Source of the DNA: a virus
DNA: 35,000 nt
Strand: one strand, 5' to 3'
IMG/VR virus record: IMGVR_UViG_3300028837_000509
Location: 1 to 35,000 of that record
Shown: positions 293 to 34,524 of the stretch, piece by piece
Layout of the letters: every line of letters begins with the position of its first letter
Position numbering within the stretch: the first letter of the stretch is position 1
Program-made: the position numbers and the translations under genes
Notes under the pieces: generated by a model
What the model saw: the letters and a program-made list of their open reading frames with translations, nothing else
The model's database searches: none
What the model was told of the DNA's origin: nothing

Positions 293-1063
293 CTATATGC
301 TATTGTAACTTTGTAAATAATCTTTTTGCTTAAATTTAAAGTCTATTATATAAATATCATTCCCAAATGTTGATTTACTTTCTGAATTTTGAATATCATA
401 TATGTCTACAGAGTCTCCATTCCATGTTACTGTAACCGTCCCGTTTATTTCTACTACAGGCAGCCTAGAAAGAAAATTCAATGTCTTATTATACCCTGAT
501 ATTTCAAATGTTTTTACATTGTTACTGGATGCAAATGCGGGTATGTCACCATATGTCTTTTCTATGCCCGTGACTTTTAGTTCAAATTCATCGCTTGGTA
601 AAATAGCATCTAAATAAACAGTATGGGTGAATAAATCTAATGGGAAACTACCTATACTTAAAGATGCTGCTGCCATAACAGCCGTAATCTTTAGGAATGA
701 ACTAACATCTGTTCGCCAACAAAACACATCACTGTAAATATCTACTGCATCATAAGTTACCTTATAGTAATATTTTCCGTCATCTTCTCCCGATGTAGTA
801 GCCCCTGTTAGTTTAATTTTGCTATAAGCAGTCCCAGCCGCATTAGTAGTGGAAACAACCGTACATGATCCAGCTTTAATCGAAACATCATTAATATCAT
901 AAAGAATATATGTAGCCACAGATACTACTGCATCAATAACTATCTGAAAAGCAGGAAGGCTATCTGTTACGAAATGATGCAATATCCCCTGATTGTCAGT
1001 ATTGTCATACTGCCTATTAGTTTTCGCCGTGTACCATCCTAATGTTCCAAAGTTGTAAATCAT
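293..1063 (-). CDS. tail protein downstream of tape measure (distal-tail candidate)
   Basis: 256 aa starting MIYNFGTLGWYTAK. Its ATG overlaps the tape-measure stop as ATGA, so translation is probably coupled. The sequence looks beta-rich and has no membrane segment. In siphophages the gene directly after the tape measure is usually the distal tail protein, and that is the basis for the suggestion; I recognise no motif that proves it. The product would sit at the tail tip. Confidence 0.7.
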   Translation of the reverse strand: MIYNFGTLGWYTAKTNRQYDNTDNQGILHHFVTDSLPAFQIVIDAVVSVATYILYDINDVSIKAGSCTVVSTTNAAGTAYSKIKLTGATTSGEDDGKYYYKVTYDAVDIYSDVFCWRTDVSSFLKITAVMAAASLSIGSFPLDLFTHTVYLDAILPSDEFELKVTGIEKTYGDIPAFASSNNVKTFEISGYNKTLNFLSRLPVVEINGTVTVTWNGDSVDIYDIQNSESKSTFGNDIYIIDFKFKQKDYLQSYNSI

Positions 1064-4000
1064 ATCTTAAATTTACCTATATATCCTTTACGTCTAACAT
1101 ACTTATATCCGCCTTCATAAGAAACTGATTCTGGTGTTTTGTCTCTTATTTCCTTCAATACCGAATTTGTGGGACTCATGTCTATTGCATCATAAGTGGC
1201 ATTTGTTGCTTGCTGTGCTAATATTTGAGTCGTTTTATCATGTGGGATTATCTCAGATCCCGGAACAATGTCATAAATAGATGGAGTATCTGAACTGAGC
1301 CATTTTTTACCAGAAGGCTCTATAACCATTTCTTTTCCACCTGACTTTAATTTTTTTCCGGGAGCATCTCCAAGTATTGACAATCCACCGGGAGCCTCTT
1401 TTATACCTTCCCCGAATTGAGGTAACGGCGTAGCAGCAACTCCGGCTAAAGTAATTCCTCCAAGTATTCCTGCTAACAGTGCTTGTGGTGATATAAATCC
1501 GTATTCTGCAATAGCCTTCGCAATGTCTAATCCAACACTAAATATAGTTTCTAATTTTTTTCTTATTGCCTCTCTTTTTGCTATTTTACGATCTTCTTTC
1601 TCTAATTTTCGCTTTGCCACTAATTGCCCAGCCGTAGAGTCTCCCGCCAGTTGAATCTCTCTGTCGTATCTATTTTGTGCCCTTTGAGATGCTGCATCAT
1701 TCAACGTCCCAGCTAAATCAAACCCAGCTTGTCCTATTTGACCTATGAAATCAATTGTTTCTTGTGCTTTTTCTTTTTTTGTTTTCTCTGTTTCTGCAAA
1801 TAAATCCCTTTTCCCTTTTTCAAGTGCTTCATGTATGGCAAGAATTCTATCTGCCATTTCTTTTTCTGCATCAATAGATAAGTCTCCAGTATCAATGAGG
1901 GATTGTAGTCTATCTGACTCTAGTTTAAGTATATCTTGATTTAATTGTAATTCTATGAGCCTTTTTTGCCTAGCTACATTCTTACTGTTTTGTAGGTCTG
2001 TTGTAGCTTTCTCTGATAAAGCTAACGCCTCTTTGTTTATACCAGCATAAGTATTGCCTAATAATTCATCGTCTTTTTCTTTTTGATCGTCTCTCTGCTT
2101 TTTGAACCCACGCTTTCTTTCGCTTATTTGAAAATTAGTTAATTCTGTTTCTTTGTCTGCATAAAGTTTATTCCTGTCTGCCAATATAGCCTTTTCTTCT
2201 TTGCTGCCAGATTTAACTAAATTTAATAATTCATCTTGTTGTTTTATTTTTAAATCAATTAACTCAATGGCATTTTCATGTTCGGATGATGCTAGTGCAG
2301 CATTATAGTCACTTTCATTTTGAAACACCTCAGCTAAGTGCGACTGTGATAATGCTAATTCTTGTTGTTGTTTTAATTTTAGAAGTTCTAGCTCTTGTTT
2401 ATTTTGTTCTTTCTGTATCTTAAATTTAGTTTTGCCAGCTTTATCAAGATCAAATAATTCTTGTTCAATTAATATTCTTGCTTGAACATTGTCTTTTTCT
2501 GATATAAGTAGACTAGTTAAGTATTTTTTATATGATTCTACATCTTTTGTTATGAATTTATTATTCCCAGCAAAGAATGCTTTTGTTTCTTCTGACTGTA
2601 GTTTATTGTATTCAGTGAACGCTTGTTTCTTCGCCTTTAATCCTGACTTATATTTTTCGACATCAAACTCCCTTCTTCTAATCTCCTTGTCAATCAATTC
2701 AATATAAGCCATCGTGTCTGTAGCTTTTTGAAAATCTCCCTTTTTTACATCTTGATAATATTTAAGTATTTGAACTTGTGCCAACTGCAACTCCTCTAGC
2801 TGAGGAACATTAAGCTTACCTAGTTTGGACATTTGGGCTTGTTCTTTTCTCGTTCTTTGTTCACCCTTTGTTCGCATGTCGTAATACTCTTCCCAGAATC
2901 TTCTTGCCTTCCATGCTCTCACTCCACTAACTTCATCAACGGCTTTTATAGTAACATCCTTTAGCGATAATAAATCAGCGTATGGAATATCTTTTAAGTC
3001 CTGCACGATGGCGGCAACTTCTTCCTTGTCGCCTATCAGGTGCTTTAAATCTGCGTATTCGGCGGTAGAGGCTAGGTATGTAACATCATTTAGAAACTTA
3101 GTGAAAAAGTTCAAGAATCCTTTAAATGTATCAGATTGATCAAGCGATTTAACAAATTCAAGCCACTGAGTATTAAATCTACCCTGAGCGGCTGTTAGTG
3201 TATTAATATTTGTTATGGTACTAATACCATAAACTTCTTCCATCGTTTTAGCAAACTTTGGCATGATTTCTTCGGAAAGAAGCTCTCCTGCCTTTAGCAT
3301 CTTGTCAAGTTCTCTTGTGTTTTTACCAACGGCTATTGCCATGATTTGAAATGCTCCTGGTAATCTTTCACCCAACTGCCTACGTAATTCTTCTGTTGTA
3401 ACCTTACCTTTACTAAGCATTTGCTCTAATGCTAAAAAAATACCAGACACTTCGTCTGTCTTTAATCCCAATACCCCAGACACCTTTGCGAATGATTCAA
3501 ATATATCCTGAACCTCTTGTACTGCTAGTTTAGTTGAGATGGTGGCTGCTCTAAACTTTAAATATCTCTCAGATAGGTTAAGTAAATCAAGTCCATATCT
3601 TTTTGAAATATCAATTAAGTATTCTTGCGTTTGAGCTAATTCGTTTTGGCTTTTAATAACTTTTTTAAATGCAAAATCCAATGATTCTAATTTTCTAGTA
3701 TCTGCAAATATTTTACGCAATAAATTCCGAGCCTGAGATACGCCAATATAAGCAACTGCTAATTTCCCAACAGAAGTAATAAGTCCCTTGAATGATTGCC
3801 CAAGATTTTTCTTTCCTACTGCTGCTTTCTTTTCGGCTGCTTCCTCTTTTCTTAATTGTGCTAAGTACTCCCTTGACTGCTGTTTGCTTAACGCTGCTCT
3901 GCGGGCTACTTCTGCTGCTTTCGCTCTTTCTGCTTGTTTTACTGTATCCGCTTCTTTTTTTGCAGCCTTTCCCCGAAGACCCATTTCCTTTATATATTCA

Positions 4001-4254
4001 GATGATCTTTGTTTGCTTAACGCTGCTCTGCGGGCTACTTCTGCTGCAAGGTCTTTTTCTGCTTGCTCTACTTCAGTCAGTGCAGTTTTAGCCTTTTTCG
4101 CACCTTCTGTTACTTCTTTGAACCCACCATCTTTAATGCCGGACTTCATTTCTTTAGCGGACTTTAATATATTCTCAAACTTCAATACAATATCGGAAAA
4201 TACCTTTAAAGCATCTTCACTAATAATATCCGTTTTTTTAATTTGACCGCTCAT
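1060..4254 (-). CDS. tail tape measure protein
   Basis: 1064 aa, the longest gene here. It sets tail length and is threaded through the tail tube. The N-terminal ~160 residues are KE/AR-rich coiled coil. A tape-measure domain follows around residues 165-360, with family-typical text such as LSERYLKF and TTEELRRQLGERLPGA. A long charged coiled coil covers about 480-930. Near residues 940-980 there is a hydrophobic segment (ALLAGILGGITLAGVAATP), and a Gly-rich C-terminus with a VPGSEIIPH-like ending, as in many tape measure proteins. It overlaps the gene before it by 17 nt and the gene after it by 4 nt. The N-terminal coiled coil holds an in-frame duplication. Confidence 0.95.
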   Translation of the reverse strand: MSGQIKKTDIISEDALKVFSDIVLKFENILKSAKEMKSGIKDGGFKEVTEGAKKAKTALTEVEQAEKDLAAEVARRAALSKQRSSEYIKEMGLRGKAAKKEADTVKQAERAKAAEVARRAALSKQQSREYLAQLRKEEAAEKKAAVGKKNLGQSFKGLITSVGKLAVAYIGVSQARNLLRKIFADTRKLESLDFAFKKVIKSQNELAQTQEYLIDISKRYGLDLLNLSERYLKFRAATISTKLAVQEVQDIFESFAKVSGVLGLKTDEVSGIFLALEQMLSKGKVTTEELRRQLGERLPGAFQIMAIAVGKNTRELDKMLKAGELLSEEIMPKFAKTMEEVYGISTITNINTLTAAQGRFNTQWLEFVKSLDQSDTFKGFLNFFTKFLNDVTYLASTAEYADLKHLIGDKEEVAAIVQDLKDIPYADLLSLKDVTIKAVDEVSGVRAWKARRFWEEYYDMRTKGEQRTRKEQAQMSKLGKLNVPQLEELQLAQVQILKYYQDVKKGDFQKATDTMAYIELIDKEIRRREFDVEKYKSGLKAKKQAFTEYNKLQSEETKAFFAGNNKFITKDVESYKKYLTSLLISEKDNVQARILIEQELFDLDKAGKTKFKIQKEQNKQELELLKLKQQQELALSQSHLAEVFQNESDYNAALASSEHENAIELIDLKIKQQDELLNLVKSGSKEEKAILADRNKLYADKETELTNFQISERKRGFKKQRDDQKEKDDELLGNTYAGINKEALALSEKATTDLQNSKNVARQKRLIELQLNQDILKLESDRLQSLIDTGDLSIDAEKEMADRILAIHEALEKGKRDLFAETEKTKKEKAQETIDFIGQIGQAGFDLAGTLNDAASQRAQNRYDREIQLAGDSTAGQLVAKRKLEKEDRKIAKREAIRKKLETIFSVGLDIAKAIAEYGFISPQALLAGILGGITLAGVAATPLPQFGEGIKEAPGGLSILGDAPGKKLKSGGKEMVIEPSGKKWLSSDTPSIYDIVPGSEIIPHDKTTQILAQQATNATYDAIDMSPTNSVLKEIRDKTPESVSYEGGYKYVRRKGYIGKFKI
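3881..4047. repeat. 38-bp in-frame direct repeat inside the tape measure gene
   Basis: Two identical 38-bp copies at 3881-3918 and 4010-4047 lie 129 bp (43 codons) apart. Each encodes AAEVARRAALSKQ in the N-terminal coiled coil. The spacing keeps frame, so changes in copy number would alter tail length in 43-residue steps. Confidence 0.9.
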
Positions 4255-5740: not shown

Positions 5741-6619
5741 TTATGCTACCGTAATGGTAATAGTTCCGCTTGAAATAACAAGGACATCATCTGACCTAGG
5801 CACTGATGGTGCAGCTAAGTTAAATGTTCCAGTTGCAAACGTAGTTCCAGTTATGGTGTATCTTCCAGGTATAGTTGAACTTTCTACAGCAGAAACTACC
5901 GTTCCATTTTCAACTACCCAATCAGCAGACGTTAATCCAAGTCCAGCAATGGCTTTTGTGTTTCCATAACAAGTAGATGTTACATCAACAACTACAGTTG
6001 TAGCACTAGCCGTTCCTATTAATGTAAGATCAACTTCTGTTAATCCATCAAGGTCTTCGGGTTCCCATGACATAACTCTTCCATAATCATACAAGTTCAA
6101 GTCTTTTTGATTCTCTAATTGAATGATTATATCAACAGTTCCACCTTCTCCGCCAGTTGTCAATAATTTCTCTTTGTCAACTATTGTCATTGAAACTCTT
6201 ATTGGCACAACATTAATTCCAGAATCGATGGTTCTTCCACGGATTGCTTCGCCATAAGTGAAATAAACGCCTTCTGTAAATCCATCGAAATAAATCAATT
6301 TCTTTTTAAGGCATTCATTAACTTCTAGTGTGAACATGTACTTATATTTTCCACGCTTAACTAGCTTCTCTGTGTCGTTCTCATACGTTCTAAGCGTAAC
6401 ATCAGAGCTTGAATCTGTTACGTTCTTAACGATCTCTTCTCCTATTACTGGATACAATAACTGACTTTTAATACCAGTCAACCATGTTGCTTCTAACAAA
6501 AAGTTAGCAGCAGTTTGGGTATGCCCTCTGTCGGCAAAAATAAATCCAGTAGGACGGTCGTATATAGTGCCAGCGACACAATATTTTCGACCTGTATTTC
6601 CTGTACTATAACAACTCAT
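5741..6619 (-). CDS. major tail tube protein candidate
   Basis: 292 aa beginning MSCYSTGNTGRKYC. An N-terminal beta-rich region (about 1-185) is followed by an Ala/Thr/Val-rich C-terminal domain (about 200-292) that looks like an Ig-like fold. Major tail proteins often carry such a decorative domain. It follows the tail-completion candidate (14-nt overlap), and a stem-loop lies right after its stop, as expected for a highly expressed structural gene. The assignment is by position, size and composition; no catalytic motif is expected. Confidence 0.6.
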   Translation of the reverse strand: MSCYSTGNTGRKYCVAGTIYDRPTGFIFADRGHTQTAANFLLEATWLTGIKSQLLYPVIGEEIVKNVTDSSSDVTLRTYENDTEKLVKRGKYKYMFTLEVNECLKKKLIYFDGFTEGVYFTYGEAIRGRTIDSGINVVPIRVSMTIVDKEKLLTTGGEGGTVDIIIQLENQKDLNLYDYGRVMSWEPEDLDGLTEVDLTLIGTASATTVVVDVTSTCYGNTKAIAGLGLTSADWVVENGTVVSAVESSTIPGRYTITGTTFATGTFNLAAPSVPRSDDVLVISSGTITITVA

Positions 6620-14138: not shown

Positions 14139-14263
14139 GATAAAATCTATTGAATAAAAAATATTCTATAGAAAAACTATTAAAGAAAATCTATTGAAAA
14201 TAAAAATTTGAATAAAAAAGTATATAAATCATAATGAAAATATTACAATTCATATACTCAGTT

Positions 14264-14279
14264 ATCGTTCAGTTTAAAA
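14264..14279 (+). repeat. 16-bp upstream repeat, copy 1
   Basis: ATCGTTCAGTTTAAAA occurs here and, identical, at 15486-15501. Each copy lies upstream of a plus-strand accessory gene (25 and 65 nt before the ATG) and each has ATTCATATA a short way upstream. It is probably a shared promoter or regulator site. Confidence 0.6.
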
Positions 14280-14304
14280 TAAGAATTTGAAGACAAAATA
14301 GGAA

Positions 14305-14676
14305 ATGAATGAAATAGAAAAGTCATATAATAAACGAAGGGATAAATTCAGGTTCAATCAATTTGATGTTGGTAATAACAATGATCGTGGAGTAAATTTC
14401 TATGGAAGAAACCATGTAGAACAATACACAGAAGTTAGCGATAAACTTTATAAACACGGCAACATGGAGTTCGTTCCTGTTCCTTATAAGCCTTATTTCT
14501 TGTGGCGGTTACTGTGGTTTTTTCTTAAATTAATTAAACCATACCATCCCAATAAAAGATTAGACAAACAAAGCAAAAGGCATATAACGATAGTGGTACT
14601 CATGGCGTTGACAATTTTAATAATGCTTTTTATAGCAATAAGGCAAGGAATATTTGACTTTGGTGTACATGACTAA
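14305..14676 (+). CDS. accessory membrane protein
   Basis: 123 aa starting MNEIEKSYNKRRDKFRF. The N-terminal ~50 residues are polar. An amphipathic aromatic stretch (YFLWRLLWFFLKLI) covers ~64-77, and a clear transmembrane helix covers ~93-112 (HITIVVLMALTILIMLFIAI), so the N-terminus is probably cytoplasmic. It is transcribed away from the portal gene under a 16-bp repeat. Function unknown; a superinfection-exclusion role is one possibility for a lone membrane moron but is not shown. Confidence 0.65.
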   Translation: MNEIEKSYNKRRDKFRFNQFDVGNNNDRGVNFYGRNHVEQYTEVSDKLYKHGNMEFVPVPYKPYFLWRLLWFFLKLIKPYHPNKRLDKQSKRHITIVVLMALTILIMLFIAIRQGIFDFGVHD

Positions 14677-14696
14677 AAACAAACTATCCCACGCTT

Positions 14697-14766
14697 GGGG
14701 GTTTACATTTTTTCAAAATGTGTTGATGTAAGAATAATTTAAAAACATAAACTAAAAATTAACATT
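14697..14766 (+). promoter_or_regulatory. G-run/hairpin leader, copy 1
   Basis: GGGGG at 14697-14701, then TTT, then a perfect 7-bp hairpin (ACATTTT, loop TTC, AAAATGT; 14705-14721), then GTTGAT. An A-rich leader follows with CATAAACTAAAAATTAAC before the ATG at 14767. The same order occurs at 15518 and 16139. The 18-nt A-rich segment is identical to the one in the 16139 copy. Confidence 0.6.
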
Positions 14767-15063
14767 ATGACTAGAGAAGAAAAATCAGACAAAGTTTTCG
14801 ACATTATAAATAATGGAAAAATTATTTTAACAGGGAAATACCCAAGTTTCAATGCCACCAATCCATTTGATTTTAGGATTTCGAAAGACATTAATAATAA
14901 GAACGCAGTTCAATTTTCAAATATTAACGAAGCAATTGATATAATTTGCGAAAATATGAACCCAGAATACGAAACAAAATTAAGAGAACAAATATTAAAT
15001 CAAGCAAAATCAACCAACACGAATACTACAAAAGAATTTATCCTTGAATTTTTAATGCTCTAA
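14767..15063 (+). CDS. small accessory protein
   Basis: 98 aa starting MTREEKSDKVFDIINNGK. Soluble and helical, with no cysteine pairs beyond one Cys. Preceded by the G-run/hairpin leader. Its 3' end overlaps a convergent minus-strand gene by 26 nt. Family not recognised. Confidence 0.65.
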   Translation: MTREEKSDKVFDIINNGKIILTGKYPSFNATNPFDFRISKDINNKNAVQFSNINEAIDIICENMNPEYETKLREQILNQAKSTNTNTTKEFILEFLML

Positions 15064-15232
15064 ATAAATGCACAATGACTTCTTTCAATGCCTTCTTATC
15101 ATCTATGCCTATTAATATATTTCGAGCATCTAGCAAATCATTTAATGCTTTGTGCTGATTCTTAGATAATTTAGGATCAAAAACAAACGACTTTGAATTA
15201 TAACAAAATTGTAAATTAGACGGATTACTCAT
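15038..15232 (-). CDS. small accessory protein next to attC-like element
   Basis: 64 aa starting MSNPSNLQFCYNSKS. Residues ~20-64 have amphipathic helical texture (LSKNQHKALNDLLDARNILI). It faces the plus-strand genes and starts 42 nt from the end of the palindrome at 15274-15400. On the minus strand it is the first gene after that element. It could be a cassette gene. Function unknown. Confidence 0.5.
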   Translation of the reverse strand: MSNPSNLQFCYNSKSFVFDPKLSKNQHKALNDLLDARNILIGIDDKKALKEVIVHLFRALKIQG

Positions 15233-15273
15233 GAATAAATTTTTATTTACCGATTAAAGACAAACAACGCACG

Positions 15274-15400
15274 ATAACAAAGTGTCATATTTCATTCGCC
15301 AATCAAAAGTACGCTAGTTTATATTAAATTAATTATCTATAAATAGTGTATGAAATGTGACTAGTTGTTAATGGCGAACAAAACATACACAAACCGTTAT
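15274..15400. repeat. attC-like imperfect palindrome F1
   Basis: Outer boxes ATAAC and GTTAT enclose arms that pair with regularly spaced mismatches: GTGT/ACAC, TTT/AAA and TTCGCCA/TGGCGAA, then a variable AT-rich centre of about 70 nt. The right arm (ACAAAACATACACAAACC then GTTAT) is almost identical to that of the element at 16621-16739, while the inner 7-bp arms differ but still pair. The architecture is that of integron attC sites. No integron integrase is in the window. Confidence 0.65.
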
Positions 15401-15485
15401 TTAAATATACAATAATTTTTTAAATAATCAATCAAAAAGTAGAAAAAACTAGTGGATTCATATAATATGAACAGACAAACTAGTC

Positions 15486-15501
15486 ATCGTTCAGTTTAAA
15501 A
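15486..15501 (+). repeat. 16-bp upstream repeat, copy 2
   Basis: Identical to ATCGTTCAGTTTAAAA at 14264. Here it lies 16 nt before the G-run leader of the next gene, so transcription probably starts close to it. Confidence 0.6.
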
Positions 15502-15517
15502 GAAAAGTAAAATGTTT

Positions 15518-15566
15518 GGGGTATTCAGTTTTTGTAAAACTGTTGGGAAAGAAAAAGAAATGAATC
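15518..15566 (+). promoter_or_regulatory. G-run/hairpin leader, copy 2
   Basis: GGGG, then TATT, then a perfect 7-bp hairpin (CAGTTTT, loop TGT, AAAACTG; 15526-15542), then GTTGGG and an A-rich stretch before the ATG at 15567. The stem sequence differs from copy 1 but its length, loop size and place after the G-run are the same, so structure appears conserved. Confidence 0.6.
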
Positions 15567-16028
15567 ATGGAAGAAAAACAGTATAAACAAATAGTAAGAA
15601 ATGATATTTTAGATGAAATATTGACGCTGTTAATGTTTTATGAAACTCCTGACTTTAATGAAATTTCAGATATAACATATTCATCAAAAATAAATATGGA
15701 TGTTATTGCTGACATGATGCCGTTATACGAATGGGAAGATTACATGAAGAAGTCTTTTGAAAAGGAATTATTGAATAAAGGATACATAGTCAAGGACAAT
15801 AATGGTAACCTATCAATAACGGAACTAGGAAATGAATTTAAAAGAAAGGGAGGTTACAAATCAGCCACTAAGAAAGAAAACCAAGAAAATACAATAAGAG
15901 TAAAGACAATTGAATCTTTCAAATATGCAAGATGGGGCTTTTATCTAGCCTTAATCGGAGGTTTTGTAGGTTTTGTTATCGCTAACTGGAAAGATATTTT
16001 AATAACGCTTCAAATAGTAGATAAGTAG
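15567..16028 (+). CDS. accessory protein, winged-helix-like with C-terminal membrane helix
   Basis: 153 aa starting MEEKQYKQIVRNDILDE. Residues ~60-95 have the pattern of a recognition helix and wing (KELLNKGYIVKDNNGNLSIT). Residues 123-140 form a transmembrane helix (WGFYLALIGGFVGFVIAN) near the C-terminus, giving a tail-anchored layout. Preceded by a 16-bp repeat and a hairpin leader. A DNA- or protein-binding domain on a membrane anchor is inferred. No family recognised. Confidence 0.65.
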   Translation: MEEKQYKQIVRNDILDEILTLLMFYETPDFNEISDITYSSKINMDVIADMMPLYEWEDYMKKSFEKELLNKGYIVKDNNGNLSITELGNEFKRKGGYKSATKKENQENTIRVKTIESFKYARWGFYLALIGGFVGFVIANWKDILITLQIVDK

Positions 16029-16138
16029 TACAGCCAATAAATATCCATTTTATTGTAAATAAAACATTGTAAAAATATTTTCCAAACCGATTCATTGCCT
16101 AAAAATTTAAAATGAACTAAAACAACTAAAACAAAATT

Positions 16139-16198
16139 GGGGGGTACATTTCTCCGAAACGTGTTCTTGATAAAATCATAAACTAAAAATTAACTAAA
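16139..16198 (+). promoter_or_regulatory. G-run/hairpin leader, copy 3
   Basis: GGGGGG, then TACATTT, an internal CTCCG loop and AAACGTGT form a bulged hairpin at 16146-16164. GTTCTTGAT and CATAAACTAAAAATTAAC follow, 4 nt before the ATG at 16199. It shares ACATTT, GTGTT and the 18-nt A-rich segment with copy 1. Confidence 0.6.
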
Positions 16199-16399
16199 AT
16201 GATCAAGGTAATTAAAGAATCTCCAACAGGGAGAAACGAAAAATTTCTCGACACCACCAAAAATAAAGAAATGACAAGAACTCAATTTGTCAAAGAAATC
16301 GAAGGTGGAAATTACAAGAAATATGTAGTCAAAAAGATAAATGGAATAAAAACCCCAGTATCTAAACCAGACGGAAACAAAAAGAATAATTTAGGATAA
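16199..16399 (+). CDS. conserved small protein, DUF3892-like
   Basis: 66 aa starting MIKVIKESPTGRNEKF. The pattern (T)GRNEKFLDT, TRTQFVKEIEGG, INGIKTPVSKPDG and a KKNNLG end is one I recall from short conserved proteins widespread in Bacteroidetes and their phages. Probably a compact beta-alpha fold; function unknown. It has the best-preserved leader of the three G-run/hairpin leaders. Confidence 0.75.
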   Translation: MIKVIKESPTGRNEKFLDTTKNKEMTRTQFVKEIEGGNYKKYVVKKINGIKTPVSKPDGNKKNNLG

Positions 16400-16594
16400 G
16401 AATACATAAAATGGATTATCTATCTTAATCTTGATGTCGTCTTTAAAATGGACTACATAGGAACATATGTCTATTCCGCCGCTATCTTTGCCATGTTTAA
16501 TTTCTTCTATAGATTTACATCCAAGTAGCCCAACATGAAAGCACGAGAATGAATTATCATCTTTTCTATCAAATAAAATATACGGCCTTTTCAA
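16391..16594 (-). CDS. short gene, possibly 5'-truncated at attC-like element
   Basis: The frame encodes a convincing hydrophilic domain (PYILFDRKDDNSFSCFHVG, ending IDNPFYVFLS) but has no ATG. The frame is open up to a TTG at 16627 inside the palindrome F2; a TTG at 16594 is the more reasonable start. It converges with the preceding plus-strand gene (9-nt overlap). Either it uses TTG or its 5' end was lost where the palindrome begins. Confidence 0.4.
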   Translation of the reverse strand: MKRPYILFDRKDDNSFSCFHVGLLGCKSIEEIKHGKDSGGIDICSYVVHFKDDIKIKIDNPFYVFLS

Positions 16595-16620
16595 TGGAAG
16601 AAAAAATAAAAACCGAAACG

Positions 16621-16739
16621 ATAACAAAGTTTATATTTCATCGTGCATTAATTACTTTGAAAACGGATTTGCTAATCGAAACGATGGTTAATACTTAGTT
16701 AATTATCTCTTGCACGACAAAACATACACAAACCGTTAT
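16621..16739. repeat. attC-like imperfect palindrome F2
   Basis: Starts ATAACAAAGT and ends ACAAACCGTTAT like F1. The inner arms TCGTGCA and TGCACGA pair perfectly but differ from TTCGCCA/TGGCGAA of F1, so the stem is conserved by compensating changes. TTT/AAA and AT/AT steps are kept as in F1. It begins 45 nt after the terminase stop on the minus strand. Confidence 0.65.
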
Positions 16740-16783
16740 TCAAATGTAAGATAATTAAATTTAATATGCAAATATAAGTGTGA

Positions 16784-19021
16784 TTATTGTTGACCCCAGA
16801 ATACTCTTTGCTTTTTAGTGTTCCATCCGATGTGGGCATATCTAGCCCCGTCCCAACAATTATGCACAAGAACTCCGTTTGCGAGATACTCATGCGTATT
16901 TGCTACTGAAATATCATAAACCATTTTTTTCTTTGTATCTTCTCTTGCCGATACCCCAACGACAAGCATAGTCTGCACATACCCTTGCTTTGCTGTATTT
17001 GCTTGTGGTGAACTCTTCTCCGCAGTATTCGCATATTTTCGTAATGTTATCAAATCCCATAATTCTTCTGTATTTTGATTTGCATTTGTTTGAGCAAAAT
17101 CTCTGCTCAGATGTTTTTGCCTCAAACATAGAATCACATATTTCACACTTTCTTTCACCAAATGTTTTATTCCCAAAATCAAACTTTTTAGCGTGTTCTC
17201 TGTGCCATTCCCTCCCAGCTTCGCTTTTATGCCACTCCTTTGCTGCTTCAATCCCTCTTGAATGGAATTTATTCCAATATTCTGGATTGTTTTTAAACCT
17301 ATCTTTTTGATGATTTCTTTGATGAAGTGAACTTTCAATAACTTCGAGATTAGATATGTCGTTATTGAATGGATTTTCGTTTTTGTGGTGAATGTCGTGT
17401 CCGCTTGGTATTTCCCCATTATAGTACTTCCATACGACAATGTGCAGTCGTTTCGCTCCTCTTGAAAAGTATCTTTCTCCTTTATATAATTTGTAACTTT
17501 TCCCATCAAACATTTGGACAGGTATATCTTGTCCATTGACCTTAACTGTTTTATTTTTTTCCATCCCTTATCTGTTTTTATTAAATGATCGCTAGTGCAT
17601 GTTAACTTAACAGCAAAGTTACTAAAATTTATCGTATATTCAAATACCTCGCGCAATCCATTGTCAAATACTTCCAATATTGGGAAGTATCCATTGGAAG
17701 TAAGAACTAAATCACCATGTTTTAGTTTATTTATTTGCACATCCCCATTGATTGTTGATATTGATGTATTCCCAATAAAGCAGTGATTAAATTTATCTAT
17801 CGGTTGGTTTATTTGGAATCCATTTATTGTTTTTAATCTATAATTCTCCTGTTCTCTTTTAGCTTCTTTATAGTATTGATTTTTAACTATATGTATTCTC
17901 TTTTTTTTCATAGATGTTATCCAATACATTATAGATTTTGTCTTCTTTACTTTTTCTATATTAGACCATCCGATATTTTTCAATCCTTTTACAAATTCAA
18001 TTGACCCTTTATTTTCTGAAATGTGTTTATCTGAAGAATCTGCGAATGTTTTTATTTTTATATTTAATCCAGTTGCTATCGCGTGTTCGTTTATAGCCTC
18101 CGGCGTTTCCATCGGCTCGTAACTGAATAACTCAATCCATATATTACCGTCAAATGATTCGTCTTTAATATTGTCCTCTGCATACTTCACGATAACACAA
18201 GGATCAACAGTGTATCCAAAATCCATTCCGTAAATAAATCCCATCCCGTCAGGAAACCTATCTATCCATTTAACATGTTGAAATATTATACCCTCTGCTG
18301 CCGCTGCTTCACCTTCTCCGTAAACTCTCCACATGTATTCATCTGCCGTTCCTGCTGAAATATTTACAGGGTGTGGTCTGCGATCTTTCATTGGAAGATG
18401 CCTGTCTTCTGGATGAGTTGGTTCGTATCTTAATTTAGCCAATCTTTCTTTTGGAGGAAGAAACGCACAGGTCAAGAATGTTGTTTTAAGAAATTTGACG
18501 TCTGGTCTGTTTTTTATCTTGTCATAGACCCAGTGGGCTGTAAACTTCGGATTGTAATCTGCTATAAATATTCCGCTTAACCTACCCTCTAGTTGATCAA
18601 ATGCTGAGCTATTATCATCGTTCATTAACTCATTAAAATAGATAAGATCATTACGTTGCCCATGCGAAGATGAATCATCTCGTCCCTTAAAACTTATTGT
18701 ATTTCCTTCCAGTATATATTTTTGTGGATGCGACTGAACGTGATTTTTTTCATCATATATGCCAGCATCCTTTAGAATTCTAATGAAATCAGCAAGGACG
18801 GTATCTTTAGTGGCTGCATACGATTCTCTTGTTATAAGTATTCTTAACCCTTTGTTTTTGTAGTTAGTGCAATATGTGAGAATGAAAATTAGCGCATCGA
18901 AAGTTTTTCCGCTGCCAGAACTGCCTTGAAGAAGGAAATTATAACTCCCATTATTATCCCAATCAAAATTATTGTGAATAAAAGCGTAGTTTATACCTGC
19001 TCTTAATTGTTTTCCTGCCAT
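16784..19021 (-). CDS. terminase large subunit, intein-containing
   Basis: 745-aa precursor; the spliced product would be 437 aa, normal for TerL. It cuts concatemers and pumps DNA into the prohead. ATPase: Walker A GSSGSGKT at 33-40, Walker B LIYFNE around 126-131. Nuclease: motif I YGMDFGYTVDP around 264-274, motif II FADSSDKH around 326-333, motif III NHC/WDGARYA. The intein splits motif III after H413, with the downstream extein starting at C722. ATG overlaps the preceding stop (TAATG). Without splicing the nuclease active site would be broken, so packaging depends on splicing. Confidence 0.95.
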   Translation of the reverse strand: MAGKQLRAGINYAFIHNNFDWDNNGSYNFLLQGSSGSGKTFDALIFILTYCTNYKNKGLRILITRESYAATKDTVLADFIRILKDAGIYDEKNHVQSHPQKYILEGNTISFKGRDDSSSHGQRNDLIYFNELMNDDNSSAFDQLEGRLSGIFIADYNPKFTAHWVYDKIKNRPDVKFLKTTFLTCAFLPPKERLAKLRYEPTHPEDRHLPMKDRRPHPVNISAGTADEYMWRVYGEGEAAAAEGIIFQHVKWIDRFPDGMGFIYGMDFGYTVDPCVIVKYAEDNIKDESFDGNIWIELFSYEPMETPEAINEHAIATGLNIKIKTFADSSDKHISENKGSIEFVKGLKNIGWSNIEKVKKTKSIMYWITSMKKKRIHIVKNQYYKEAKREQENYRLKTINGFQINQPIDKFNHCFIGNTSISTINGDVQINKLKHGDLVLTSNGYFPILEVFDNGLREVFEYTINFSNFAVKLTCTSDHLIKTDKGWKKIKQLRSMDKIYLSKCLMGKVTNYIKEKDTFQEERNDCTLSYGSTIMGKYQADTTFTTKTKIHSITTYLISKLLKVHFIKEIIKKIGLKTIQNIGINSIQEGLKQQRSGIKAKLGGNGTENTLKSLILGIKHLVKESVKYVILCLRQKHLSRDFAQTNANQNTEELWDLITLRKYANTAEKSSPQANTAKQGYVQTMLVVGVSAREDTKKKMVYDISVANTHEYLANGVLVHNCWDGARYAHIGWNTKKQRVFWGQQ
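16859..17782 (-). mobile_element. intein in terminase nuclease motif III
   Basis: 308 residues (414-721 of the precursor). Block A is CFIGNTSISTINGD with Cys1. Block B is TCTSDHLIKTDKGW with the TxxH motif (T476, H479). Block F is VYDISVANTHEYLANG, and block G is VLVHN followed by the C+1 nucleophile. All residues needed for splicing are present. The central ~200 residues in this frame look like translated non-coding sequence, because the HNH gene occupies another frame there. Confidence 0.92.
16914..17564 (-). CDS. HNH homing endonuclease nested out of frame in the intein
   Basis: 216 aa starting MEKNKTVKVNGQDIP. An N-terminal strand region (KSYKLYKGERYFSRGAKRLH) leads into the HNH core (VVWKYYNGEIPSGHDIHHKN, then NNDISNLEVIESSLHQRNH) with H59-H60, N67/N68 and H81. 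The C-terminal half has zinc-knuckle pairs (CEIC, CSNKC, CEYC, CADYAC). It is read in the -1 frame relative to the intein and ends at TGA overlapping intein block F. A free-standing homing nuclease that would mobilise the intein is the natural reading. It starts at ATG 17564, or by -1 slippage on the adjacent A7. Confidence 0.88.
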   Translation of the reverse strand: MEKNKTVKVNGQDIPVQMFDGKSYKLYKGERYFSRGAKRLHIVVWKYYNGEIPSGHDIHHKNENPFNNDISNLEVIESSLHQRNHQKDRFKNNPEYWNKFHSRGIEAAKEWHKSEAGREWHREHAKKFDFGNKTFGERKCEICDSMFEAKTSEQRFCSNKCKSKYRRIMGFDNITKICEYCGEEFTTSKYSKARVCADYACRWGIGKRRYKEKNGL

Positions 19022-25562: not shown

Positions 25563-25796
25563 ATGAAAACTAAAAATAAAATTGAATTTACAAGAATCAA
25601 TAATGACATTAATGGAAACCCTAGATATGTTTGTCATTTTTTGAATTTATCAGACCACTACGGGTCTGCAATATTAATTGCCAACTCAATTGATGGGCGG
25701 AAATTCCACAATAAACAATATGGCGGAGGTTTGGTTTTTCAATCATATAACATTGATAATCTAGGAAAAAGATTGCTAGAGTTGAAAGAAAACTAA
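25563..25796 (+). CDS. small protein of unknown function
   Basis: 77 aa starting MKTKNKIEFTRINNDING. Beta-type texture (NPRYVCHFLNL, SAILIANSIDGRKF). An A-rich leader with a TAAAAAAC copy at ~25529 precedes it. Function unknown. Confidence 0.65.
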   Translation: MKTKNKIEFTRINNDINGNPRYVCHFLNLSDHYGSAILIANSIDGRKFHNKQYGGGLVFQSYNIDNLGKRLLELKEN

Positions 25797-25830
25797 TTCC
25801 ACCCGTCTAAAGTCGGCAAAAATATGATAG

Positions 25831-25846
25831 GCACGGGCAACCGTGT
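25831..25846 (+). promoter_or_regulatory. GNRA-capped hairpin in leader
   Basis: CACGG and CCGTG (with an extra G-U pair) are closed by a GCAA tetraloop, about 38 nt before the next ATG. The very stable cap suggests an RNA structure that is selected, perhaps a translation control or processing site. Confidence 0.4.
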
Positions 25847-25883
25847 TAAATATACTGGAATTATAAATTTAAAACTAAGAAAA

Positions 25884-29588: not shown

Positions 29589-30068
29589 CTATTTTTTAAA
29601 TTGTTTTTTAAACCTTAGATACTTTTTCCCGTGAGCTCTACCCCATCCACGCCTCTGATTGTTGAAATTGTAGTAGAATATTTGTCCGGTATCTGTTAAC
29701 ACTATTACGTTTATCCTATACATCATAGCGGCACGAATTGATTCACCATCCATTATTTTGTAATACACGAAGCTTCCAATTTGGCTGTAGCGTTCAGATA
29801 TGCCAAGAATTTTACTATTGTATCTAATCCCAAAGAACCCGATTCCATCCAGAGGTAAAGCCTTTGCGTGCCTGATTTGATTTACTGGATATAATGTAAA
29901 AGGAACCGGTTCGTTGTCTCCTTTTAGATCAAGCAATATGTTATTCAACCCATCTGCGCAAACATTTGCTCCTGTAGTAATATCTGCCGACATGGCTGAA
30001 TTATCAATAATATTTTGACCATACATAAATACAGGTAGCAATAATAATATTAATGTTAGTGTTTTCAT
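29589..30068 (-). CDS. exported protein of unknown function
   Basis: 159 aa from ATG 30068 (MKTLTLILLLLPVFMYGQ), a textbook Bacteroidetes signal peptide ending YGQ. The 7 codons upstream in frame lack ATG and were dropped. Mature part has IGFFGIRYNSKILGISERYS and a basic C-terminus (KKYLRFKKQFKK). Probably periplasmic. Part of a run of six exported or anchored proteins. Confidence 0.7.
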   Translation of the reverse strand: MKTLTLILLLLPVFMYGQNIIDNSAMSADITTGANVCADGLNNILLDLKGDNEPVPFTLYPVNQIRHAKALPLDGIGFFGIRYNSKILGISERYSQIGSFVYYKIMDGESIRAAMMYRINVIVLTDTGQIFYYNFNNQRRGWGRAHGKKYLRFKKQFKK

Positions 30069-30698: not shown

Positions 30699-30946
30699 CG
30701 TCTACACGTTGTACTCCATGATATTTCAATGGGAGTAACCAATACAATAGAATCTGGATATGTTATATTATACTTTGGCGGCGCGTCTCCCATATATTGC
30801 GGAGTTCCAATTGAAAGACATGACCATAAATGACCATCCTTGTTGCATATTTCCAAACTGTCTTTATCTGCAAAAAAATCAACTACCCCCTGACCATTAC
30901 AAATTGAGGCAATTAGAACCATAAAAATAATAGCTATCTTTTTCAT
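30677..30946 (-). CDS. small exported protein with CxxC
   Basis: 89 aa. Signal peptide MKKIAIIFMVLIASICNGQ, then an acidic domain and a C-terminal CRRCGATGY pair. Two further Cys in between could form disulphides in the periplasm. Function unknown. Confidence 0.6.
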   Translation of the reverse strand: MKKIAIIFMVLIASICNGQGVVDFFADKDSLEICNKDGHLWSCLSIGTPQYMGDAPPKYNITYPDSIVLVTPIEISWSTTCRRCGATGY

Positions 30947-30960
30947 GTTTAATTTATTGG

Positions 30961-31389: not shown

Positions 31390-31571
31390 TTTGATACTGT
31401 TATTGATTTAATATAAAAATTATAATTCTCGTTATTCATTTCGTCATTACAGGCATTGTTTAATATCAAATAATTTTCTGCATCTGATACGAATTGCCAG
31501 TTTTTGCTTCTTAATGAAGATACTAATACTCTATCAAAATAGAAATCATATCCATCTTTTAATAATACATA
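31386..31571 (-). pseudogene. 5'-truncated gene fragment beside attC-like sequence
   Basis: A 61-codon frame with good coding texture (LLKDGYDFYFDRVLVSSLRS then NWQFVSDAENYLILNNACND) has no usable start and is cut by an in-frame TAG at the edge of the attC-like right arm. The 5' end has probably been replaced by the element. Its TGA overlaps the next start. Confidence 0.5.
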
Positions 31572-31608
31572 CTAAACATACCCAAACCGCAATCAGTTTG
31601 TCAGTTAT
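31566..31608. repeat. partial attC-like right arm
   Basis: CATACTAAACATACCCAAAC then CGC, a 14-nt spacer, then GTTAT. This matches the right arm of F1/F2 (ACAAAACATACACAAACC then GTTAT) with an insertion before the box. No matching left arm was found. The stop of the 98-aa gene adjoins the box. Confidence 0.45.
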
Positions 31609-31897
31609 TCTCGGCTTTATCCTTCCTGCCACATACGCAAATAATAACATGCGTTAGGTCTTTGCAAATAGGACAAACTAACTGTTCGCTTTGCCCCATA
31701 ACAATATGTTTATGTAAGCTGTTTTCTCTCGTAGATTCGGGCTTGCCTTCACACGCTTTTATTCTTTTCTTAACTGCGGGTAATTGCCACCATCTATTAA
31801 ATGGTAATGGGTCATTCATCGGGAATTGTTTCCCCATTTCTTTACCTTCTCTAAATCCTTCTTGATATGTAAATTTCAATAGTGCTTTTAAATCCAT
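31601..31897 (-). CDS. accessory protein with zinc-binding C-terminus
   Basis: 98 aa starting MDLKALLKFTYQEGFREG. C-terminal CPIC and CVCG pairs suggest a zinc ribbon. The segment HKHIVMGQSEQL is shared with the 89-aa gene at 34255 (HENIVGQSEQL), with an 18-bp identity in the DNA. Lies between two attC-like boxes, as a cassette gene would. Confidence 0.65.
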   Translation of the reverse strand: MDLKALLKFTYQEGFREGKEMGKQFPMNDPLPFNRWWQLPAVKKRIKACEGKPESTRENSLHKHIVMGQSEQLVCPICKDLTHVIICVCGRKDKAENN

Positions 31898-31929
31898 CGC
31901 TTCGGTATTTAATTGTTATTTACTCGTAT

Positions 31930-31982
31930 TTAATTTTTAGGTAATTGTCACAACAGCCTCCACAAACACCAACCGTTAGGGC
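31930..31982. repeat. attC-like element A
   Basis: Right end ACAAACACCAACC then GTTAGGGC (31975-31982). The left half pairs weakly (AGGT, TGT against ACA, ACC). GTTAGGGC is the exact complement of GCCCTAAC at 32203-32210, which bounds the same gene on its other side, as in an integron cassette. A 10-bp direct repeat (GTATTTAATT) lies just to the left. Confidence 0.5.
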
Positions 31983-31985
31983 AAA

Positions 31986-32186
31986 TTAAAGTTCGTCCAA
32001 CATTGTAAGAACTTTGTGTTCTTCAATATGAATATCACACATTTCATCAAGCTCTGCCTGATTATTTGCTTTATCTGTCATTAATTCAGTAACCGCATAC
32101 TGTCTGGCTGATGTAATATTGTCGAATATTCTATCAACTTGTGAACCGCCATTACCATTATCTTCATAAACTATATAAACTATCAT
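31986..32186 (-). CDS. small accessory protein, cassette gene
   Basis: 66 aa starting MIVYIVYEDNGNGGSQV. Beta-alpha pattern with DNITSARQYAVTELMTD and acidic C-terminus, resembling small phage/plasmid DUF7336-like proteins. It fills its cassette: the stop is 3 nt from the GTTAGGGC box and the start 16 nt from GCCCTAAC. Function unknown. Confidence 0.65.
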   Translation of the reverse strand: MIVYIVYEDNGNGGSQVDRIFDNITSARQYAVTELMTDKANNQAELDEMCDIHIEEHKVLTMLDEL

Positions 32187-32202
32187 ATCAATAAATTAAC
32201 TC

Positions 32203-32298
32203 GCCCTAACAATAAATAAACCCAATATGGCAGGGGCAAGGTTCTGCCATTGTTTAAAGTATAGTGGGCTGCCATACTGTGTTTATTAAAACCGTTAC
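32203..32298. repeat. attC-like palindrome B
   Basis: Boxes TAAC (32207-32210) and GTTA (32294-32297). Arms AATAAAC/GTTTATT (32215-32221, 32281-32287) and TATGGCAG/CTGCCATA (32226-32233, 32269-32276) pair perfectly, around a 35-nt centre. The best-formed attC-like site in the array. Its left 16 nt recur in element G. Confidence 0.7.
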
Positions 32299-32513
32299 AA
32301 ACAATTAAAACCTGAAACGGTATTCAGTATTTTCAATCTCTGTTCAACTGCATCATAGTCTTTATTGTTCTTAACATTTTTCAATTGTTCTTGTAGTTTT
32401 TGAGCTTCCTTAAACTTTTCATCCGAACTTTTACCTTTCAATGAATCGTTAATCATTTCATTTAATGTAAGTAAGTTGGTTATTGATAATCCATTTATAA
32501 AATCTTGTGTCAT
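32295..32513 (-). CDS. small coiled-coil protein, cassette gene
   Basis: 72 aa starting MTQDFINGLSITNLLTL; Lys/Glu helices (KEAQKLQEQLKNVKNNKDYD). The stop codon TAA is part of the TAAC box of element B. Ends of the cassette, TTACAAA and TTTGTAA, are complementary. Function unknown. Confidence 0.6.
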   Translation of the reverse strand: MTQDFINGLSITNLLTLNEMINDSLKGKSSDEKFKEAQKLQEQLKNVKNNKDYDAVEQRLKILNTVSGFNCL

Positions 32514-32532
32514 TGTATCAGGTTTTAAAAGA

Positions 32533-32615
32533 TTTGTAAAAAAACAGGCGTAGGCAGCGTTTACGCTCTGAATTTAGGTTAGTGGTTACGCCCGATTTTT
32601 TATACTCAACGTTAT
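32533..32615. repeat. attC-like palindrome C
   Basis: Left TTTGTAA, then AAAAA, C and GGCGTA pair with TACGCC, G and TTTTT across a centre holding AGCG/CGCT. Right box GTTAT (32611-32615). Mismatches between steps are symmetrical, as in attC sites. Confidence 0.6.
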
Positions 32616-33214
32616 GCCCCATTTAAGGGCGCAAAGTCGGCTTCGATTATACATTGTGCTAAATCTCCAATTCGCTGAAAAAATTGCTCTCTATTTTCTA
32701 ATGCTGCATTTAATCTATCATTATCATTTTTAGAATAGTTAGAAATATCACAATCCATTGTAGGGCTACTTTGAAAAATGCAGTGAATCAAGAAACCTTC
32801 ATCTTTTAAAAACGCAGGTGTCCACGGCTTGCATTGTTCTATATATTCCAATTCACTATCACACCACGTTAACCACTCATTTAATGGTTTACTACATTGG
32901 CAACATATTTCAATACTTTCGTGGTCTCCATTATTATCGTAATAAACTTCTTCAACATGAGTACCTTTTCCGTATTGCTTTCTAATATCAGCTTTTGTTT
33001 GTTTAATACATTTTTCATCATCACAGCAATCAAATTCGCCTGAAACTTCTTCATCTTTCACTTTGAAGTAATAAGTCCAGCGTGATACTTCTTTTTTGCT
33101 AAATGGCTCAATTATTTCTCTTGCCGATTTAATCAGCTTTTCAAATTCATCTGTAAATCTTGCGGAATAATTCATTCCGTAAGTTTCTCTAACAGGGTCT
33201 TTTATAGCTTTCAT
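32612..33214 (-). CDS. accessory protein with Cys pairs
   Basis: 200 aa from ATG 33214 (MKAIKDPVRETYGMNYSARF). The frame is open to 33277 but that part lies under a real small gene, so the later ATG was chosen. Contains FDCCDDEKCIKQTK and ICCQCSKPLNEW, possible metal sites. Helical N-terminal half. The stop TAA is in the GTTAT box of element C. Function unknown. Confidence 0.65.
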   Translation of the reverse strand: MKAIKDPVRETYGMNYSARFTDEFEKLIKSAREIIEPFSKKEVSRWTYYFKVKDEEVSGEFDCCDDEKCIKQTKADIRKQYGKGTHVEEVYYDNNGDHESIEICCQCSKPLNEWLTWCDSELEYIEQCKPWTPAFLKDEGFLIHCIFQSSPTMDCDISNYSKNDNDRLNAALENREQFFQRIGDLAQCIIEADFAPLNGA

Positions 33215-33215
33215 A

Positions 33216-33371
33216 TTATTGTTCGGCAAATTCTTCCGCTTCTTCCTGAGTAAAGTTTTTAATATCAAATCCTTCATCTACCTTGAATCCATCTTGTCTT
33301 AATTGTACCTCTTTTTCAAATCTCACGAAGTTTGGCATCTTCGGTGGAATAATCTTAAATAATTTTTGCAT
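33216..33371 (-). CDS. small protein upstream of Cys-rich gene
   Basis: 51 aa: MQKLFKIIPPKMPNFVRFEK then EVQLRQDGFKVDEGFDI, ending EEAEEFAEQ. Ends 1 nt before the next ATG, so co-translated. Preceded by AAAACAAAATTTAAA. Function unknown. Confidence 0.6.
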   Translation of the reverse strand: MQKLFKIIPPKMPNFVRFEKEVQLRQDGFKVDEGFDIKNFTQEEAEEFAEQ

Positions 33372-33390
33372 TTTAAATTTTGTTTTGCAC

Positions 33391-33420
33391 CACCCACGCT
33401 CAAAAACGAAACGCTAACAT
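33391..33420. repeat. degenerate attC-like arm D
   Basis: CACGCTCAAAAACGAAACGC then TAAC. Shares the CACGCT(A)CAAAAAC segment with element E at 34080-34093. No opposite arm was seen. Confidence 0.3.
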
Positions 33421-33453
33421 GTTTCATAGTAAAGATTGTAGGTAAATCCATAA

Positions 33454-33612
33454 TTATTTTTGCCTACGCTCTTTTTGCTTTTTCAAAGCAATATGATCTT
33501 GCAATATCTTCCTAACATAGTTAGATAGTGGTCTGCCGTCTTCTTTTGCAAACTGGGTCAAGCAGTCTAAATCTTCCTGCTCAACCCTTGCTGGTAGTTG
33601 TACTTTTGCCAT
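33454..33612 (-). CDS. ribbon-helix-helix (CopG/Arc-like) regulator
   Basis: 52 aa: MAKVQLPARVEQEDLDCLTQ, then FAKEDGRPLSNYVRKILQDH and a basic tail. The short beta strand (VQLPARV) and two helices with G-R-P-x-S turn are typical of RHH DNA-binding proteins, often antitoxins or plasmid/phage repressors. ATG lies 2 nt after the preceding stop; the 102-aa upstream gene could be its partner. Confidence 0.7.
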   Translation of the reverse strand: MAKVQLPARVEQEDLDCLTQFAKEDGRPLSNYVRKILQDHIALKKQKERRQK

Positions 33613-33614
33613 AA

Positions 33615-33923
33615 TTAATTATTGTATATTTCACCTTCAAATACTCCTTTTTCTTCCCAGTGTCTTCCAAGGTTAAATCTAAACTTACCTTCTGCGGTTT
33701 CAAGAAAAAGCAAATCATATCTTCTTTTTCCTTTTTTAACTTTTACTATTTCGCTTCTCAACTTCAAGTTCTTTGAAGCAAGCCCACGATATAAGTTCTT
33801 AACGTGGTCAAAATTCTCAGAAGCCATCCTCCCATAAAGTTCTTTGATACATAGCTCAACGTTTGTTCTGTTTTTTCCGTTAAACATTCTGTTCAACATC
33901 CAAATAACTAATTTTACTAACAT
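33615..33923 (-). CDS. accessory protein upstream of RHH gene
   Basis: 102 aa starting MLVKLVIWMLNRMFNGK. Basic, with helical N-terminal half and a beta C-terminal half (RYDLLFLETAEGKFRFNLGR). Paired with the RHH gene, which may control it, as in a toxin-antitoxin-like unit. No catalytic motif recognised. Confidence 0.6.
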   Translation of the reverse strand: MLVKLVIWMLNRMFNGKNRTNVELCIKELYGRMASENFDHVKNLYRGLASKNLKLRSEIVKVKKGKRRYDLLFLETAEGKFRFNLGRHWEEKGVFEGEIYNN

Positions 33924-34029
33924 AATTCTAGTTTTTAATTATTGCATTATTGCACTTCAAAGATATGTCATTTGTATTACAATAGCAAGCGTTTAGTAAT
34001 AAAAGATTAAAAAAATAAATCCCTCCTCC

Positions 34030-34109
34030 AAAAAAATAATTATTACGGCAGTTTTTCATAGGAAAGTTCATCGGTATGCCACGCTACAAAAACATACATT
34101 TTCCGTTAT
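34030..34109. repeat. attC-like element E
   Basis: Right arm GCTACAAAAACATACATTTT then CCGTTAT (box 34105-34109) matches F1/F2 right arms. The left arm is degenerate (GGCA/TGCC only). The stop of the adjacent gene lies in the box. Confidence 0.45.
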
Positions 34110-34264
34110 AAACAAATAAAATTATTCAGTTTTAATTTTATCCATTTGTACGTATCTACAATCAGTGTCCATGCATTTGCGTATATTAATATACCATCAC
34201 TTTCTTGTTTAACTCTCAATCCTAATCTACCTTTTGTGTATTCTTGTGCTTCTTTTAAGTCCAT
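34106..34264 (-). CDS. small accessory protein, cassette gene
   Basis: 52 aa: MDLKEAQEYTKGRLGLRVKQ then ESDGILIYANAWTLIVD, ending LNNFICL. TAA stop falls inside the GTTAT box of element E. Overlaps the upstream gene by 10 nt. The region 33924-34105 holds no other gene. Confidence 0.6.
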   Translation of the reverse strand: MDLKEAQEYTKGRLGLRVKQESDGILIYANAWTLIVDTYKWIKLKLNNFICL

Positions 34265-34524
34265 AATTTTATCAGATTTATAACAATGTATTTTTTTGCC
34301 TCTTTCTCGTAATCGAAGTCATGGTTATTAATTAATCCTTTGTCGTTTAAGTGAATTAAAAAATTAATTAACTGTTCGCTTTGCCCTACAATATTTTCAT
34401 GTAATGCTTTGTCGCTATATTCGTAGTAGTTTGGGTGCCTGTTCCATTTTTCACTTTGGCAGTTTCCATATCCTTCTTGGCGTGTCATCTTGCTCCAGCT
34501 TTTACAATCTCTGCAATTATTCAT
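34255..34524 (-). CDS. small Cys-containing accessory protein
   Basis: 89 aa starting MNNCRDCKSWSKMTRQE. N-terminal CRDC and a later Cys (GNCQSEKW) suggest a zinc knuckle. Shares HENIVGQSEQL with the 98-aa gene at 31601. Function unknown. Confidence 0.6.
   Translation of the reverse strand: MNNCRDCKSWSKMTRQEGYGNCQSEKWNRHPNYYEYSDKALHENIVGQSEQLINFLIHLNDKGLINNHDFDYEKEAKKYIVINLIKLWT

Follow-up and report, generated by a model that had tools for sequence, protein, structure and literature searches.

The genome of a flavobacterial-type phage probably carries integron-type gene cassettes at two places, encodes no integrase in the sequence available, and swaps these cassettes with a shared pool by means of an enzyme acting in trans. 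The window, that is, the whole stretch of 35,000 bases that was analyzed, is a virus record from IMG/VR; its portal, capsid and terminase genes lie on the minus strand. An attC site is a DNA hairpin site with the layout R''-L''...L'-R'. Integrons ordinarily use a tyrosine recombinase that binds such sites as folded single-stranded DNA and, by cutting at G^TTRRRY, exchanges cassettes as whole units. The recombinase serving this phage would most likely be supplied in trans by the host or by a co-resident element, and phages would pick up and swap small accessory genes out of a common cassette pool. It would be IntI or an IntI-like enzyme that exchanges the cassettes; the exchange would be ongoing today, and the cassette genes would help the phage.

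Three attC-type sites lie in the window (Table 1). In all of them R'' (YAAC) and R' (GTTR) boxes flank an imperfect L''/L' inverted repeat, and the site at 32.2 kb holds a strong palindrome (32215-32287; 19 nt, 89%). The covariance model used here, R1, was made from 28 aligned sites of other phages, with their variable loops trimmed first and with all window sites and the homologues of the window site left out; at a (rough) E of 10 or better it matches the window at these three places only, always on the minus strand. The pair finder, which is the method that had also picked the training sites of the model, returns the same three sites at a score of at least 31, while 200 shuffles of the window average 0.045 oriented sites of that score per window. 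One other pair-finder match (5967-6042) was rejected: it lies inside a coding gene and has no AACG box. A search of the window with Rfam gave no attC match, and the single-strand folding energies of the three sites (z -0.2 to -1.75) do not differ significantly from those of shuffles, which counts against the assignment.

Table 1. Cassette-related features of the window, and tyrosine recombinases of two attC-bearing contigs (the last two lines). E-values are rough, the covariance model having been given a short calibration.
Feature	Position	Strand	Details
attC-type site	15270-15404	minus	between portal and terminase genes; 44.8 bits, E 7e-8; pair finder 34; double G-T signature
attC-type site	16617-16743	minus	between portal and terminase genes; 46.4 bits, E 3e-8; pair finder 31; double G-T signature
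attC-type site	32202-32302	minus	R'' TTTGTAAC ... R' GTTAGGGC; 37.5 bits, E 2.9e-6, by the model without its homologues
Degenerate attC-like hairpin	32522-32614	minus	retains R'' GCATAAC and L arms but has lost R' GTT; pair finder 33.5 with the relaxed TTA box only; 3.9 bits (background)
Cassette	31975-32210	minus	gene 31986-32186, 66 aa; complementary ends GTTAGGGC / GCCCTAAC
Probable cassette	32294-32535	minus	gene 32295-32513, 72 aa; ends (G>T)TTACAAA / TTTGTAAC; R'' box supplies the TAA stop
Cassette-like unit (doubtful)	14261-15278	minus	ends GTTATCGTTC / GCACGATAAC, 9/10 complementary; right edge is R' of attC 15270-15404; ORFs 14305-14676(+), 14767-15063(+), 15038-15232(-)
Second unit of similar build (doubtful)	15483-16625	minus	ends GTCATCGTTC / ...AACGATAAC; right edge is R' of attC 16617-16743; ORFs 15567-16028(+), 16199-16399(+, DUF3892), 16391-16627(-)
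221-aa ORF	32612-33277	minus	upstream of the degenerate hairpin; not between two intact attC sites
XerA/IntI-like tyrosine recombinase	G016:12178-12969 (L062)		263 aa; ~0.6 kb downstream of the array's last attC, same strand
XerA/IntI-like tyrosine recombinase	G014:21147-21881 (L061)		272 aa; ~10 kb from the array

The identity of the sites is directly supported by the structure model and by covariation. In the alignment of the 28 sites 89.9% of cells pair, and the covariation score is 0.586, shuffles giving 0.165 and slid versions of the alignment 0.13 or less (sliding being a control that tests register only); the paired percentage and the covariation are both inflated because the sites had been selected for complementary arms. 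The model finds independent support in the three sites of the window and in 26 further matches in new contigs. Covariation among these sites of other phages is that of an element in which structure is kept rather than sequence, as in attC. What selection for complementary arms does not explain is the near-invariance of two G-T pairs spaced by five bases: 27 of the 28 sites have the one at columns 23/71, and 24 of the 28 the one at 28/66. On the bottom strand, the strand of attC that integrases use, these would be C-A mismatches. The phage sites mostly have two such mismatch positions (top-strand G opposite T) and no bulges, some of them having a bulge at the second position; the two G-T pairs presumably do the same job as the bulges of class 1 sites. 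Mismatches in place of bulges weaken the label of a class-1-like attC. No class 1 integron attC matched the phage model at E 0.5, which counts against the integron reading, and the phage stem therefore differs from the textbook site.

The initial annotation had placed an array of attC-like palindromes in the interval 31566-34109. One true site (32202-32302) survives of it, the remaining boxes being at background or decayed-looking, and two stronger sites, those between the portal and terminase genes, lie outside the interval and had been overlooked. The covariance-model search that the annotation proposed, run with our own model, likewise lifts the three sites of the window above background and leaves the other proposed boxes there: with filters off, the best score in 31400-34400 after that of the true site is 7.6 bits, and the neighboring hairpin (32521-32619 in this search) reaches 3.9 bits. 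On account of such background scores the boxes at 34106 and 31986/31975, as well as the hairpin, were rejected as intact sites; the hairpin may be a decayed attC site. The genes of the interval do run in one direction, on the minus strand, and the stop codons at 32295 and 32612 are indeed the TAA of a TAAC box, the third box so described (34106) having been rejected as an intact site. The further suggestion of a CALIN-like cluster carried by a phage stands with respect to the class of element, for which homologous sites in long arrays of other phages, different flanking genes and the lack of a recombinase in the window all speak; it does not stand for the interval itself, which holds one intact site, one hairpin without R' and partnerless boxes instead of a run of several attC sites. 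The CALIN configuration (at least two attC sites within a few kb and no intI) is found between the portal and terminase genes, where 1.3 kb separates the site at 15.3 kb from that at 16.7 kb, in a window with no PF00589 match. The site at 32.2 kb is isolated, the other two intact sites being 15-17 kb away.

The notion of a fixed operon with transcription terminators or chance repeats in place of recombination sites holds for most of the boxes originally listed, with their background scores and with the chance-level ends of the window. Extended to the three intact sites it is very improbable and already contradicted there by model E-values between 3e-6 and 3e-8, by R boxes and by covariation in the stem; moreover, one of these sites has homologues between unrelated genes. 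The three sites show neither the background scores nor the genes fixed in relatives that had been named as grounds for abandoning the cassette interpretation.

Complementary ends are the hallmark of integron cassettes. The cassette at 31975-32210 has ends (31975-31982 and 32203-32210) that are complementary at 8/8 positions and enclose a single gene in one orientation, just as had been noted from the sequence; ends like these enclose a different gene in another phage locus (L010). Those around gene 32295-32513 were also found, the outer box having T in place of G. As a hallmark within the window alone, however, such ends fail: the five perfect 8-nt pairs counted in 29-35 kb are at the chance level, shuffles giving 5.35. 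Generic counts of end complementarity are too weak in AT-rich DNA. Direct support comes instead from the relatives. In 31 cassettes between consecutive same-strand model sites, taken from seven phage sequences, the ends are complementary at 219 of 279 positions, compared with a mean of 164 upon random re-pairing, and 0 of 10,000 trials reached 219; because the model ignores cassette ends, this test is independent of the choice of sites. IMG/VR protein searches with the genes 31601-31897 and 32295-32513 returned no relatives, and the 221-aa protein encoded next to the degenerate hairpin has no PHROG, Pfam or phage-record match.

With several ORFs each, distributed over both strands, the two units at 14261-16625 are doubtful as cassettes and not of the simple one-gene kind; the use of both strands, which simple cassettes do not show, counts against the favored reading. 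The two units are alike in having a membrane-protein-like ORF, a short second ORF after a repeated leader and a minus-strand ORF, and these neighbors look like a diverged tandem duplication. The adjoining terminase ORF (16784-19021, minus strand, 745 aa) appears by eye to be interrupted by an intein-like stretch, and an ORF in another frame within it (16914-17564, minus strand), also by eye, is HNH endonuclease-like.

The varied neighbors of the site at 32202-32302 are a matter of direct observation. A 20-mer of its palindrome located homologues in two IMG/VR contigs, and a 23-nt pattern located a third. L010 and L011, which are counted once because they come from near-identical phages, match window positions 32184-32296 with 94% identity over 113 bp and have unrelated genes on both sides. 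L026 matches 32207-32288 (93% over 82 bp), the match starting at the R' box, and its neighbors are different again. The site therefore recurs in three other phage contigs, of two phage types, with different neighboring genes each time. In the contig of L011 (G004), cassettes whose ends are complementary at 9/9 positions follow one another, and hairpins that have R'' and R' boxes stand between them; the TAA of TAAC is there the stop codon of several genes. The array of G005 adjoins a DnaB helicase gene and its neighbor, both common to G004; no cassette protein of one array matches the other at E 1e-4. Thus, for the site at 32202-32302 and for the place of the G004/G005 arrays, relatives have different gene content at one position. 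Searches with the G004 array led to sites in Tenacibaculum phage Gundel_1 and in LS06-2018-MD05, and Polaribacter phage P12002L also carries many such sites. In certain long attC sites (L019:8140-8358, L019:8865-9058 and the array end of L062 = G016) the next gene has its start codon inside the loop of the hairpin, and its reading frame crosses L' and R', which makes the recombination site a portion of that gene.

These matches also bear on the idea that attC sites are now passive blocks of homology at which annealing recombinases of the Erf/RecT type swap genes, no site-specific recombinase taking part. In its favor, the match between the window and L010 continues beyond the R' box into the leader that follows; most attC-bearing phages lack a tyrosine recombinase, and the annotation of LS06-2018-MD05 includes an Erf-like annealing protein. 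Such an explanation nevertheless leaves unaccounted for the complementary ends of each single cassette, the start of the L026 match at the R' box and the strong covariation of the stem despite divergence of its sequence, and we regard it as unlikely.

The window and most attC-bearing phage records encode no tyrosine recombinase, so the absence of an integron integrase from the window, as first annotated, is borne out. PF00589 has no match in the window or in ten related records (relatives of the window, G003-G007 and the complete genomes Gundel_1, LS06-2018-MD05 and P12002L), one of which, G002, has no attC model match; the window, having no tyrosine recombinase by this search, does not contain a complete integron. 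An integrase was not found in hosts either: none of 84,980 species genomes of bacteria and archaea contains the exact attC patterns, a negative that counts against a host source and is weak evidence because only two narrow exact patterns were scanned. A later scan covered 12 contigs, 8 of them with model matches, and two encode small XerA-like tyrosine recombinases (Table 1). The two proteins are 35% identical, resemble XerA/XerC, and match NF040815, TIGR02224 and TIGR02249 below cut-off. In the alignment with IntI1, which shows 26% identity, a large gap faces the extra residues of IntI1.

It is distinctly improbable that a small phage-borne enzyme of this kind, XerA/IntI-like and without the IntI-specific insert, is what moves the cassettes. 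Its presence in two attC-bearing contigs, the position of the G016 gene just past the last attC on the same strand, and the likeness to integrase families noted above speak for it. Against it, the window and most attC-bearing records have no such enzyme, the G014 gene is distant from the array, and such enzymes may serve phages for lysogeny. A broader version would give flavobacterial-type phages a cassette system of their own, with a double-G-T class of attC that small XerA-like recombinases without the IntI insert would move in place of IntI; a minority of phages (G014, G016) or the hosts would encode these enzymes, which would act in trans on the remaining arrays. This, too, is an outside chance. 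Supply in trans of an IntI-type enzyme is the reading retained here.

The assignment to flavobacterial-type phages comes from capsid relatives. For the capsid protein of the window, G001 contains an identical copy (100%) and G002 a relative at 66%; weak relatives occur among cultured phages, including the Polaribacter phages P12002L/S (23.7% identity for P12002L); other matches are a Pseudanabaena phage (31.6%) and LS06-2018-MD05, which is labeled a Rhodobacteraceae phage. Because of these phage relatives the hosts would be (marine) flavobacteria. The sample of phage records consists mostly of fragments, and the only close relative of the window phage in it is G001, a 100% identical fragment; none with another set of cassettes spans the window, which counts against the exchange reading. 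The closest distinct phage, G002, has accessory genes between terminase and portal without an attC model match there, and therefore provides no demonstration of cassette gain or loss. Elsewhere in the window, a small-gene region contains a type-P3 twister ribozyme (25795-25862, plus strand; Rfam RF03154, 50.1 bits, above the gathering score), and a 63-bp direct repeat (3881-3943 and 4010-4072, 87% identity) lies within a 1064-aa ORF (1060-4254).

If exchange is active, phages carry and mix integron cassettes rather than being incidental hosts of them, and small accessory genes would have a route between phages and bacteria. A common attC family and a model of it make the question of which recombinase moves phage cassettes directly testable.

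Sedentary chromosomal integrons share with the phage elements, of which G004 is an example, arrays of many small genes with one attC per gene; they differ in that no intI was found with the phage arrays. Class 1 integron attC sites (of aadA, dfrA and similar cassettes) have the same R''-L''...L'-R' layout, TAAC/GTTR boxes and cassette logic, and the pair finder recovers several of them; their L arms have one-base bulges, whereas the phage sites mostly have two G-T pairs five bases apart. The class of element is already known, because CALINs with functional attC sites have been published for phages, including Polaribacter phage P12002L (Qi et al. 2023, PMC9892861), whose CALIN comprises two methyltransferases and one proven site (PMC9892861). 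Model R1 matches P12002L at 30003-30061 and 30904-30960, two sites outside the training set that lie between methyltransferase genes; by their gene context these matches fit the published CALIN (PMC9892861). As far as a non-exhaustive literature search goes, novelty may lie in the G-T signature and in the fact that one site could be followed between unrelated phages. The window phage resembles the phage CALINs in having attC-type sites without an integrase, and the P12002L sites match the same model; it differs in being uncultivated, in having its sites divided between two places, and in that one of these sites has been traced between unrelated phages carrying different genes.
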